64,000 nt of DNA, from assembly GCA_902796885.1 (NCBI GenBank), contig CADBQY010000112.1, positions 1 to 64,000 of the forward strand. The letters are read 5' to 3'. Below are positions 42,160 through 47,742 of the stretch, piece by piece. Position numbers and translations under genes: made by a program. Position 1 is the stretch's first letter; every line of letters starts with the position of its first letter. The notes under the pieces are model-generated. The model did not search any database, was not told the origin of the DNA, and saw only the letters and a list, made by a program, of their open reading frames with translations. Source of the DNA: an uncultured Planctomycetota bacterium (lineage in GTDB: Bacteria; Planctomycetota; Planctomycetia; Pirellulales; Thermoguttaceae).

Positions 42160-43842
42160 TTATGCGGGAATCTTTCGGTATTTCGAGCGGCGGCCCTTCT
42201 GCGCGTCCGCCTGGGCGGCGAGGACCACATCTTCGTAATCGGTAAAATTCCCTTCGAACCATCGGACTTTTCCCCCTCCCTCGAAAACGAGCAGGTGGGT
42301 GCAGATCCGGTCGAGGAAGAAGCGGTCGTGGCTGATCACCAGGGCGCAGCCGGGGAAATCGATGATCGCCTGTTCGAGCACGCGCATCGTGCCGACGTCC
42401 AGATCGTTCGTCGGTTCGTCGAGAAGGAGGAAATTTCCGTCCCGCTTGAGGAGTTTCGCCAGGTGAACGCGGTTTCGTTCGCCGCCGGAACATTTGCCGA
42501 CCGGCAGCTGCTGCGAGGCGCCTCGGAAATTGAACCGCGCCAGGTAGAGACGGCTGTTCATCTTCACCGGGCCGAGTTCGACCAGGTCGCGTCCTCCGGT
42601 GATCTCTTCGAAGACGGTGTTGTCGTCGTTCAGGGCGTCGCGATGCTGATCGACATAGGAGAGTTTCACCGTTTCGCCCAGCTCGAGCGTGCCGCTGTCC
42701 GGTTTTTCTTCGCCGACGATTATCCGAAAGAGGGTGGTCTTTCCGGTTCCGTTCGGGCCGATCACGCCGACCACCGCGCCGCGCGGCACGTCGAACGAGG
42801 CGTTCTGAATCAGCGGAATGAATTTTCCGCCGATTTCGAATCCTTTGCAAAGGTCGCGCACGTTCAGAACCTTTTCGCCCAGCCGGGGACCGGGAGCGAT
42901 CTGAATGACCGTATCGCTCTTATCGTCGATCTTCTGCTGAGCGGCGAGTTCTTCGTAGGAACGGACGCGCGCCTGGTTCTTCTGCTTCCGGCCGCGATGC
43001 GCCTTTTCGATCCATTCGAGCTCCCGCTTTAAGACTTTCTGACGCTGCGACTCTTTCTTTTCGGAGAGACGGAGGAGTTCGGCTTTCTGCGCCAGCCACG
43101 ACGAGTAGTTTCCTTCGAACGGCAGACCGCGGGTGTTGTCGATTTCGAGAATCCACTTGGTGACGTTGTCGAGGAAGTAACGGTCGTGCGTGACGATGAT
43201 CACCGTTCCGGGGTAATCGCGCAGGGTCGCCTCTAACCAGCGGACCGTTTCGGCGTCGAGGTGGTTCGTCGGCTCGTCGAGCAGGAGGAGATCGGGGCGT
43301 TCGAGCAGCGCTTTACAGAGCGCCACGCGGCGCCGTTCGCCGCCGGAAAGCTGACTGATGACCGCGTCGTCGGGGGGGAGGACCAGGGCGTCGGAGGCGA
43401 TGTCGATCCGCCGGTCGAGTTCCCACCCTTCGAGGTGGTCGATCTCTTCTTGGAGGCGTCCCATCTCTTCCATCAGTTTGTCGAAATTGTCGGCCTGGTC
43501 GGGATCTCCCATCAGGACCGAGATCTCGTTGAACCGGTCGATTTTTTCCTGGATCGGGGCGACCGCTTTCATCAGGTTTTCGCGCACGGTGGCCGCGAGA
43601 TCGAGTTCCGGTTCCTGCGCCACGTAGCAGACGCGCATCCCCTTGACCATCGTCACTTCGCCGTCGATGTCGGTGTCGAGCCCCGCCATGATTTTGAGGA
43701 GGGTCGATTTTCCCGCGCCGTTTTCACCGACGATCCCGATTTTGGCTCCGTAGTAGAACGCCAGGGAGATATTTTGCAGTATCACCTTTTCGCCGAAGCG
43801 TTTCGACACGCGGTTCATTTCAAAAATAAAGTGGGGCGCCAT
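42160..43842 (-). CDS. ettA: ABC-F translational throttle protein EttA
   Basis: A soluble ABC-F ATPase that binds the ribosomal E site and gates translation according to energy state. The 560 residues have two ABC domains: first with GENGAGKST, LSGGERRRVAL, LLLDEPTNHLD; second with GPNGTGKTT, CSGGERNRVHL, LLLDEPTNDLD. An arm/linker rich in Arg, Lys and Glu lies between them (WIEKAHRGRKQKNQARVRSYEEL), as in EttA. Length and linker match EttA rather than Uup or YheS. AAAGGA lies upstream of the start. Confidence 0.95.
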   Translation of the reverse strand: MAPHFIFEMNRVSKRFGEKVILQNISLAFYYGAKIGIVGENGAGKSTLLKIMAGLDTDIDGEVTMVKGMRVCYVAQEPELDLAATVRENLMKAVAPIQEKIDRFNEISVLMGDPDQADNFDKLMEEMGRLQEEIDHLEGWELDRRIDIASDALVLPPDDAVISQLSGGERRRVALCKALLERPDLLLLDEPTNHLDAETVRWLEATLRDYPGTVIIVTHDRYFLDNVTKWILEIDNTRGLPFEGNYSSWLAQKAELLRLSEKKESQRQKVLKRELEWIEKAHRGRKQKNQARVRSYEELAAQQKIDDKSDTVIQIAPGPRLGEKVLNVRDLCKGFEIGGKFIPLIQNASFDVPRGAVVGVIGPNGTGKTTLFRIIVGEEKPDSGTLELGETVKLSYVDQHRDALNDDNTVFEEITGGRDLVELGPVKMNSRLYLARFNFRGASQQLPVGKCSGGERNRVHLAKLLKRDGNFLLLDEPTNDLDVGTMRVLEQAIIDFPGCALVISHDRFFLDRICTHLLVFEGGGKVRWFEGNFTDYEDVVLAAQADAQKGRRSKYRKIPA

Positions 43843-44172: not shown

Positions 44173-45765
44173 CTAGGCGCGATGCTTGACGGCGGCGGCG
44201 ACGAAATCGGCGAAGAGCGGGTGCGGTTTCGTCGGCTGCGACTTGAACTCCGGGTGATACGCCACGGCGACGAACCACGGATGGTTCGGCAGTTCCATTA
44301 CTTCGAGATGGTTGCCGGTTTCTGTTTTGCCCGAAAGGACAGCGCCCCCTTCTTCGAATTTCGCCTGATATTCGAAATCGAACTCATACCGATGGCGATG
44401 GCGCTCTTCGACCGACTCCGCCCCGTAGATTTGCGCGACTTTCGAGCCCGGGGCGAGTTTCACCTTGCGGCTGCCGCGGCGAACGCCGTCTTCGGGGTCT
44501 TTGTCGTCTTGCAGGAGGCAGAAGATCGGATCCTCGCAAGTGCGGTCGTACTCGGTCGAATCGGCGCCGGCCATTCCCAGCACGTTCCGGCCGAATTCGA
44601 TCATCGCGCTTTGGATCCCGAGCGCGACGCCGAAGAACGGAATCCCCTTTTCGCGGGCGATCTGAACCGCCTCGACCGTTCCTTTCACCGTCCGTTCGCC
44701 GAACCCGCCGGGAACGATGATCCCGTCGACGTTTTCGAGGATCTGGCGCGTTTCCTGACGCGTGACGTTTTCGCTGTCGATTCGGCGGATCCGCACCTGG
44801 GTACGGTTCGCTCCGCCGGCGTGGTCGAGCGCTTCGTAGACCGACTTGTAGGCGTCTTTATGGTCGGCGTATCGGCCGACGACGGCGATCGTGATTTCCT
44901 GTTCCGGATTGTGCATCCGGTCGAGCATTTCGCGCCAGGCGGTCAGATTCGGCTCGGCGGCTTTCAGCCCCAAGAGGTTGACGATCGTCTCGTCCATTTT
45001 ATTGGCGTGGAGCGCCATCGGGACTTCGTAAATCGAGAAATCGGCGTCCCGCTCTTCCACGACGCAATTCGCCGGAACGTTGCAGAAAAGAGCGATTTTC
45101 GCGCGTTCTTCTTCCGGAATCGGCTGTTCGGTACGGCAGACGATCATATCGGGCTGAATTCCGATCGACAGGAGCCGGCCGACGCTGTGCTGCGTCGGTT
45201 TGGTTTTAAGTTCCCGCGCGGCTTTCAGATAGGGGATCAGGGTCAGGTGAATAAAGAGGCAGTTTTGTTTGCCGATATCGTTGGCGAACTGGCGGATAGC
45301 TTCCATGTGGGGGAGCGACTCCATATCGCCGACCGTCCCGCCGATTTCGGTGATCACCACGTCGACGTCGTCCCGATCGAGGTAGGCGATTTTTTCTTTG
45401 ATGATGCTCGTCACGTGCGGAATGACCTGAATGGTCGCGCCCTTGTATTCGCCGGCGCGTTCTTTTTCGCCCATTTCCTGATAGAGAAGGCCGGTCGTCC
45501 AGCTGCTGTGGCGGGTCAGGCGGTCGCTGGTAAACCGTTCGTAGTGCCCCAGATCGAGATCCGTCTCGCTTCCGTCGTCGAGGACGTAGACTTCGCCGTG
45601 CTGGAACGGGCTGAGGATTCCGGGAAGAATATTCAGATAAGGATCAAGTTTCTGCATGCGGACGCGGAGTCCCCGGCTTTCGAGGAGCATTCCGATCGAC
45701 GCGCAGGTTAAACCCTTTCCGAGCGAACTGACAACGCCGCCGGTTACAAAGATATGTTTCGTCAT
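44173..45765 (-). CDS. pyrG: CTP synthase with Cys-to-Ala substitution at the glutaminase nucleophile
   Basis: Converts UTP to CTP with ATP and ammonia, normally released from glutamine by its own C-terminal amidotransferase domain. The 530 residues include the synthetase P-loop ([12 protein letters not shown]), [19 protein letters not shown] and the full amidotransferase domain with [11 protein letters not shown]. The nucleophile motif that normally reads GICLGMQ is GVALGIQ, with Ala381 (codon GCG at 44623-44625) in place of Cys; the partner His-Pro-Glu (AYHPEF) is retained. Glutamine hydrolysis should be blocked, leaving ammonia-dependent synthesis or an outside ammonia donor. Everything else looks intact, so it is not a decayed gene. 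Confidence 0.95.
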
Positions 45766-45933: not shown

Positions 45934-47421
45934 TTAGCCGACAATCTTTGCGAACCGCTCGTAAGCGTCGTCCCAGAGGGCGGTTTCCTGCGGGACGTAT
46001 TCGGCGACCTCGAAGCTGTCGCGGATGACCGCGCGCGCCTCGGCGATACCGGCGACGTCACCCGAGGCGACCGCCTGCATCATCACGTTCCCGATCGCCG
46101 TCGCTTCGATCGGCCCCGTCACCACGCGGCACCCCGTGGCGTTGGCCGCCGCCTGGCAGAGGAGTTTGTTGCGGATCCCGCCGCCGACGATGTGGAGCGT
46201 GTTGATCTTCGCGCCGGAGATTTTTTCGCACATCCCGAGAACCTGCCGGAACTTCATGGCGATACTTTCCAGAACGATGCGCAGGACCGTGCCGTCTTCC
46301 TGCGGAACCGGCTGACCCGTCCGCTGGGCGAACCGGCGGATCGCTTCGGGCATATCGGTCGGCGCGAGGAAATCGCGGTGATCCGGATCGATGAAGGCCG
46401 TCATCGCCGGCGCGCCGGAAGTCATGTTGTTCATGTCTTCCCAGTCGAGGTTGCGCCCCTTTTGGTTCCAGACGCGGCGGCATTCCTGGAGAAGCCACAT
46501 TCCGCAGATATTTTTCAGAATCCGGGTCGTTCCGCCGACGCCCCCTTCGTTGGTGAAATTGAACCCCGAGACGACGTCGTTGACGACCGGCCTCGGCGAT
46601 TCGATTCCCATCAGGGCCCACGTTCCCAGGCTGACATACGCCCAGTCGGTCGAGCCGACCGGACTGGCCGTCGGAACGGCCATCACGGCGCTGGCGGTGT
46701 CGTGCGAGCCGGGGAGCACGATTTTCATTCCCGAGAGACCGCACTCTTGCGCCAGCGAAGCGCGCAGGGTTCCCAGAACGGTCCCCGGTTGCGAGACCGG
46801 CTTGAAGATGTGGGTCGGAATCCCGAACTTTTCGAGGATTCCTTTGGCCCAGTCGCCTTTCACCGGATCGAAGAACTGCGTGGTGGTCGAGTCGGTGAAC
46901 TCGTTGCTCATCTCGCCCGACAGGAGCCAGTGGAAGATGTCGGGAATCATCATGAAGCGTTCGGCGTTGGCTTGGGCGACCGAGCCGGAGATTTTATCGG
47001 CGATCAGCTGGTAGAGCGTATTGATCTGCATAAACTGCAGGCCGGTGTTGGCGAAGATTTCGTCGCGCGAGACCGTTTTAAACGACTCTTCCATCACCCC
47101 GTCGGTCCGCGGATCGCGGTAGCAGTAGGGATTCCCCAGAAGCTTGCCGTTCTTGTCGAAGTAGCCGTAGTCAACCCCCCAGGTATCGACGCCGACGCTT
47201 TCGACCGTCGCGCCGAACTTTTCGCCCGTCAGACGGAGCCCGTTCTGCACTTCGTTCCAAAGACCGGGAAGATTCCAGTGATAGCTCCCCATCATTTCGA
47301 CCGGACCGTTCATATACCGGTGAACTTCTTCGAGTTCGATCCGTTTGCCGTCGAAATGACCGATGAGAAGACGCCCGCTGGAAGCGCCCATATCAACCGC
47401 CAGATAAGATTTTTTTGCCAT
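45934..47421 (-). CDS. rhaB: Rhamnulokinase
   Basis: A FGGY-family sugar kinase phosphorylating L-rhamnulose in rhamnose catabolism. The 495 residues start MAKKSYLAVDMGASSGRLLI, whose VDMGASSGR is the rhamnulokinase version of the phosphate-1 motif. Other family features are NTLYQL, the substrate region LPGSHDTASAVMAVP, and the adenosine region HIVGGGIRNKLLCQAAANA. ATG 47421 is chosen because the 21 residues encoded upstream are not family-like. No other rhamnose genes (rhaA, rhaD, transporter) are present, so the pathway must be completed elsewhere. It has its own terminator. Confidence 0.95.
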   Translation of the reverse strand: MAKKSYLAVDMGASSGRLLIGHFDGKRIELEEVHRYMNGPVEMMGSYHWNLPGLWNEVQNGLRLTGEKFGATVESVGVDTWGVDYGYFDKNGKLLGNPYCYRDPRTDGVMEESFKTVSRDEIFANTGLQFMQINTLYQLIADKISGSVAQANAERFMMIPDIFHWLLSGEMSNEFTDSTTTQFFDPVKGDWAKGILEKFGIPTHIFKPVSQPGTVLGTLRASLAQECGLSGMKIVLPGSHDTASAVMAVPTASPVGSTDWAYVSLGTWALMGIESPRPVVNDVVSGFNFTNEGGVGGTTRILKNICGMWLLQECRRVWNQKGRNLDWEDMNNMTSGAPAMTAFIDPDHRDFLAPTDMPEAIRRFAQRTGQPVPQEDGTVLRIVLESIAMKFRQVLGMCEKISGAKINTLHIVGGGIRNKLLCQAAANATGCRVVTGPIEATAIGNVMMQAVASGDVAGIAEARAVIRDSFEVAEYVPQETALWDDAYERFAKIVG

Positions 47422-47742
47422 GGTAAAGCCTCGTGTGGGGTGAACGTGAATGGTCCGAAAAACAGACCCGACTACGCCCCTCATTTTACAGAAAAAATAC
47501 CGGGAAACAATCAGGGAAGAATCATTTTTCGGGAAAAAACCGCGCCGAGGCGATTCCGCCCGTGAAAACGGAGCAGCCGAGGCTGCGCGGTTTCTTCCGG
47601 CACGCGCGCCGGGCCGAAGAGACTGATAAATTTGCTAAAAGGGGGAAACTTTAACGATTTTACTGATGATAACGGCCCGTCGAGCCGATAAGGGATAGGG
47701 GGGACTCTCGGCCGAAAGGGGACGTTTACGGAGCGAAAGTTT
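47422..47742. other. Divergent intergenic region between rhaB and the beta-barrel gene
   Basis: 321 bases with AT-rich patches (47505-47545 and 47625-47670) and a short GC hairpin GCAGCC-GAG-GCTGC around 47573-47588. No convincing -35/-10 pair was found for either gene, and no small gene was recognised. Confidence 0.4.

Follow-up and report, generated by a model that had tools for sequence, protein, structure and literature searches.

On the minus strand of the 64,000-nucleotide stretch of DNA analysed here (the window) lies pyrG, the gene for CTP synthase, which makes one of the four letters of RNA (Table 1). The open reading frame is uninterrupted and full length, and its 530-residue product carries both CTP synthase domains in a single chain (Pfam CTP_synth_N, 3e-114; GATase, 2e-32). 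Around the nucleophile turn of the glutaminase half, however, the codons on the minus strand are ccg ttc ttc ggc gtc gcg ctc ggg atc caa, and alignment to E. coli PyrG confirms the replacement of the nucleophile Cys (E. coli C379) by Ala that a sequence-only reading of this DNA had claimed. That reading counted at least two substitutions and considered a sequencing error unlikely; three base changes in fact separate a TGY Cys codon from GCG, and the Ala is not due to chance or error, because Cys loss recurs in four congeners from separate samples. Of the Cys-His-Glu triad needed for glutamine hydrolysis only His and Glu are kept (C379A), and the glutaminase half of the window PyrG is, as judged by its sequence, inactive.

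Table 1. Features of the pyrG locus, with positions in the window
Feature	Position	Strand	Basis
FGGY carbohydrate kinase (rhamnulokinase-like), directly upstream of pyrG; marks the native locus	45934..47484	-	synteny
pyrG, native copy; predicted glutaminase-dead CTP synthase, 530 aa	44173..45765	-	ORF, Pfam, tree, synteny
L2 loop Ile50-Leu51 in place of Thr51-Met52 (E. coli numbers); GTP cleft	45613..45618	-	alignment; cleft residues 50-55 from PMC9138612
Oxyanion-hole motif GGFG, retained in the window PyrG; altered in lineage B	44698..44709	-	alignment
Lid L11 Thr359 in place of Gly (E. coli G357); GTP-site change	44689..44691	-	alignment; L11 role from PMC9138612
Ala codon GCG, residue 381, in place of the nucleophile Cys (E. 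coli C379)	44623..44625	-	alignment to E. coli PyrG
Triad His504 and Glu506 (E. coli H515, E517), retained	44248..44256	-	ORF, alignment
ABC-F type ATPase, downstream of pyrG; conserved in congeners	42160..43842	-	ORF, synteny

Synthase and GTP sites

In the synthase half, K18, K40, D72, E140, D147, E149, K187, Q192 and K223 of the window PyrG are identical to E. coli, and these nine catalytic and nucleotide-binding residues are invariant across all full-length Thermoguttaceae PyrG. Unlike them, the triad, oxyanion-hole and GTP residues vary in particular lineages of the family (about 100 sequences). The predicted structure (AF2, pLDDT 87.7) has the CTP synthase fold, with a TM of 0.95 to 8fve and a range of 0.94-0.95 against E. 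coli CTPS. The window PyrG thus resembles the E. coli enzyme (PDB 1S1M) in both domains, the fold, the tested synthase residues and the NH3-gate residues P54, H57 and V60, but differs from it in the Cys, which is Ala or Gly in its lineage, and in GTP-site residues T51, M52, G357 and T438.

The GTP cleft of CTPS comprises residues 50-55, 297-301, 353-356, 438-441, 468 and 470, and bound GTP, besides activating the glutaminase, blocks the opening through which exogenous NH3 enters (PMC9138612). Substitutions G352P in E. coli and R359M and T431V in L. lactis (where R359 and T431 correspond to E. coli R356 and T438) abolish glutamine-dependent activity and leave NH3-dependent activity in place (PMC9138612). 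Compared with the family consensus, the window PyrG carries T51I, M52L, G357T and T438G, and these replacements indicate that its GTP-activation site is eroded. The earlier view that the rest of the gene is intact therefore held for H515, E517 and the synthase half, but not for this site. We also looked for a disordered GTP loop in the structure predictions; pLDDT in the two blocks was 50/61 for the dead enzyme and 61/64 for an intact control, a difference too small, and too limited by the MSA, to be used.

Two pyrG genes in the window genus

The window genome, a metagenome-assembled genome (MAG) of 3.14 Mb, 80.7% complete and 3.6% contaminated, carries on another contig (G000:C6) a canonical second gene, pyrG2 (GICLGMQ), which adjoins a full-length guaA. 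The two proteins are only about 47% identical. Among six sampled congeners, four have two pyrG copies (G001, G003, G004 and G005) and two have one (G002 and G006). Every two-copy genome (5/5) contains one Cys-less copy, with Ala in four, including the window, and Gly in one (G004), and in all five pyrG2 adjoins guaA. The Cys has accordingly been lost in 5/7 sampled species of this genus of ruminant-gut Thermoguttaceae. The earlier reading would have fallen if a normal second copy existed and the Ala were not conserved in relatives; the second copy does exist, whereas loss of the Cys is shared across the genus. Given the completeness and contamination of the MAG, the Ala might be an assembly error or pyrG2 a contaminant of binning, but we regard such an artefact as extremely improbable, because Cys loss recurs in four other MAGs and the two copies, with pyrG2 beside guaA, are found in five of the seven genomes.

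In phylogenetic trees the Cys-less pyrG clusters with the single pyrG of G002/G006 within the family clade (support 97/89 and 95/89), and an orthologue of the rhamnulokinase-like gene, about 70% identical, adjoins that single pyrG (L037/L038). In the trees the intact second copies lie outside that clade and were therefore probably acquired. Since the Cys-less copy is native by tree and synteny, the Cys was lost from the native enzyme. The presence of intact pyrG2 also means that reliance of the window organism on its dead PyrG alone is unsupported. Genes that adjoin guaA and come from outside the family clade include L043 (G000:C6), L039 (G004:C9) and L201 (G118:C56); G118, which belongs to another genus, has both this pyrG-guaA pair and a dead PyrG.

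Repeated loss across the Thermoguttaceae

We located every PyrG hit in 119 Thermoguttaceae genomes and read about 100 sequences against E. coli numbering. Lineage A, the window genus, has C379A/G, T51I, M52L, G357T/S/N and T438G. Its neighbour A' (G002/G006) has a single PyrG that keeps Cys and His and carries E517Q, R356D and T51M; the glutaminase of these proteins (L037, L038) may be weak, given E517Q and R356D. Lineage B (genus g9 and G139) has C379G, G352 changed to S/N/C in most members, sometimes H515Y, and T51L, M52F/L, E68T and R356S/T; its dead PyrG usually has an intact companion. Lineage C (five genomes of g21, 82-91% complete) has a single PyrG that keeps the Cys and has H515L and E517Q, together with L380N, T51L, R468Y and the gate change V60T. 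Lineage D (G082/G084, partly G087) has a single PyrG with an intact triad and a lost GTP site: its proteins (L211, L212 and L213) show T51K/M, with R468S and R470Y/W in two and R470S in one, and CarA is absent. In the single PyrG of G117 (L186, G117:C483), the nucleophile is replaced by Ser (C379S), and the GTP-binding lid and wing are altered. A pattern search for nucleophile turns that lack the Cys, run over 392 genomes of the phylum and blind to losses of the lineage C type, returned only the window genome.

In trees of the synthase domain without the GTP loops and of full-length proteins without the GTP and catalytic columns, each of the lineages A, B and C has 100% support, and they occupy three separate positions (A beside A', B beside g10, C within intact g21 sequences). 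Their inactivating residues differ, which also argues for separate events. Constraining the three to one origin cost 20 log units on the synthase domain, a borderline result (p = 0.059). A single origin of all dead PyrGs is thus disfavoured by the trees and by the differing residues, with the formal test borderline, and we count at least three losses of the glutaminase in the 119 family genomes, through different residues.

In lineage A, dN/dS was 0.032 for the synthase and 0.118 for the GAT domain; the intact partner gave 0.039 and 0.119. Such low values indicate that the genes are not decaying and rule out a pseudogene reading of the window pyrG, in which a glutaminase predicted to be inactive is joined to a synthase under purifying selection. 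If the GAT domain of lineage A were purely redundant, it might change faster than that of the intact partner; it does not, which weighs against the ammonia-dependent enzyme proposed below, and this continued constraint suggests a structural role. One could still suppose a redundant copy in decay, the native glutaminase having become dispensable when pyrG2 arrived, and in the window genus Cys loss does coincide with the foreign intact copy. We nevertheless consider decay decidedly improbable: dN/dS is 0.03-0.12 with full-length open reading frames in five species, the substitutions fall in the glutaminase and GTP sites but not in the synthase site, and lineage C lost its triad with no second copy.

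Parallel changes in CarA, CarB and GuaA

The native GuaA of the window genus, of about 310 residues, is without a glutaminase domain (L288, at G000:C103; L282-L287; L289), and such a short GuaA is the only GuaA in lineage C and G002/G006. In these same genomes CarA is absent (5/5 MAGs of lineage C and 2/2 of G002/G006) and full-length CarB is kept; a search for a second pyrG or a spare class-I glutaminase in them found none. These absences rest on incomplete MAGs (82-91% complete for lineage C), but all five of lineage C and both of A' agree. Across the family, CarA was missing from 10/10 genomes with only an impaired PyrG (A', C and D) and from 10/99 others (p = 4e-9, with kinship ignored). 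Orphan CarBs form one clade (100/100) apart from CarA-paired CarBs. They occur in four genera (L320, at G000:C29; L322-L329; L331; L333) and are the only CarB in several CarA-less genomes. Lineage B genomes mostly retain CarA and full GuaA, so coupling of the losses is not universal. One genome, G034, has both full and short GuaA.

All three enzymes are present in the window genome in a glutamine-type and a putative ammonia-type form: CarAB (C61) next to orphan CarB (C29) in its inventory, full GuaA (C6) next to short GuaA (C103), and PyrG2 (C6) next to the dead PyrG of the window. Its other class-I members TrpG/PabA, CarA, full GuaA, PyrG2 and HisH keep the Cys, which rules out a general loss of glutaminases and indicates that ammonia use is not general. 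The window genome shares with G002, G006 and lineage C a PuuD/peptidase C26-like class-I GATase homologue (L050, at G000:C181:22991-23371; L266-L272), whose nucleophile turn carries Gly or Val-Gly (GIGAGMQ, AIGVGMQ) and no Cys. This protein was the third class-I match in G002, G006 and lineage C, and its assignment as PurQ was rejected.

This inventory also bears on whether a separate protein hydrolyses glutamine and passes the ammonia to PyrG, as the sequence-only reading had offered as one option. Split amidotransferases such as CarA/CarB are common (PMC3376133). We found no ammonia-related or glutaminase partner gene among the conserved pyrG neighbours in the genus, however, the class-I matches of the window genome are those listed above, and G002/G006 and lineage C have even fewer. 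With no candidate partner found among the neighbours and the class-I proteins, supply in trans is very improbable.

Discussion

We consider it likely, from these sequence comparisons, that the native PyrG has been turned into an ammonia-dependent CTP synthase belonging to a wider ammonia-dependent nucleotide set. Joint loss of the glutaminase and GTP sites with an intact synthase site would be expected of an enzyme fed by outside ammonia. With its glutaminase site inactivated, its GTP site eroded and its UTP/ATP synthase site unchanged, the enzyme would admit free NH3 from the ammonia-rich gut through an uncapped vestibule and aminate UTP. The ammonia-rich habitat proposed earlier agrees with the hosts, as named records of the genus come from yak and goat duodenum, goat ileum and rumen MAG sets. 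The proposal that free ammonia is used is largely supported as the best explanation; its strongest support lies outside the window, in lineages that have only a dead PyrG, lack CarA and the GuaA glutaminase domain, and keep CarB and the GuaA synthase domain.

Orphan CarB, glutaminase-less GuaA and dead PyrG would together make up an ammonia-type set. It would be apparently the sole set in lineage C and G002/G006, and in the window organism it would stand beside a glutamine-type set (CarAB, full GuaA and PyrG2). AsnA and AsnB are ammonia-type and glutamine-type asparagine synthetases of unrelated folds in one cell; the window organism likewise has both types for one reaction, but here both are PyrG. 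The two sets may work like E. coli AsnA/AsnB, with ammonia used cheaply while it is abundant and glutamine taking over when ammonia runs short.

Alternatively, the Cys-less PyrG could be a regulatory or structural pseudoenzyme, acting in mixed tetramers or filaments with PyrG2 or as a nucleotide sensor, and making little CTP. CTPS builds tetramers and filaments in many organisms (PMC9138612), lineages A and B have an intact PyrG alongside, and the GAT domain remains constrained. This is nonetheless unlikely: the active-site residues of the synthase do not vary, lineage C and G002/G006 possess a single PyrG each, the window organism's own pair shares only about 47% identity, and a pseudoenzyme role would not explain why CarA and the GuaA glutaminase domain were lost in parallel.

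The closest parallel to the window PyrG as an ammonia-fed enzyme is CPS I of land vertebrates, in which the glutaminase domain is kept without its Cys and ammonia is the only nitrogen source (PMC7657897); it belongs to a different enzyme family, and in the CTPS the GTP allosteric site is also eroded. Among bacteria, type N (single-domain) NAD synthetase is an ATP-dependent amidotransferase working on free ammonia (PMC3376133). Unlike the window PyrG, it has no glutaminase domain at all, and it is widespread, occurring in 44% of surveyed genomes. In the 600-800 genomes of that survey, no synthetase for CTP, GMP or carbamoyl phosphate was found to lack a glutaminase (PMC3376133), but the survey counted domains, so that a point-mutated PyrG would escape notice. 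In the literature searched (open-licence papers) we found no earlier description of a CTP synthase that had lost its glutaminase naturally.

Amidotransferases that draw their nitrogen from glutamine are regarded as almost universal in nucleotide biosynthesis. Repeated natural loss of the glutaminase beside an unaltered synthase site supplies ready test enzymes for the entry of exogenous NH3 into CTPS, and the same proteins could test roles of the GTP site beyond glutaminase activation. Glutamine analogues such as DON are predicted to be unable to inhibit dead PyrGs at the glutaminase site. On balance, we favour a history in which gut Thermoguttaceae repeatedly evolved a full ammonia-dependent nucleotide set, on which some lineages would rely alone, and in which others, the window genus among them, later took up a pyrG-guaA operon, thereby recovering PyrG and GuaA of the glutamine type, and now run both sets. 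This would tie enzyme evolution to the ammonia supply in animal guts and, if true, the lineages relying on the ammonia set alone would be the first bacteria observed to produce carbamoyl phosphate, GMP and CTP with none of these glutaminases.
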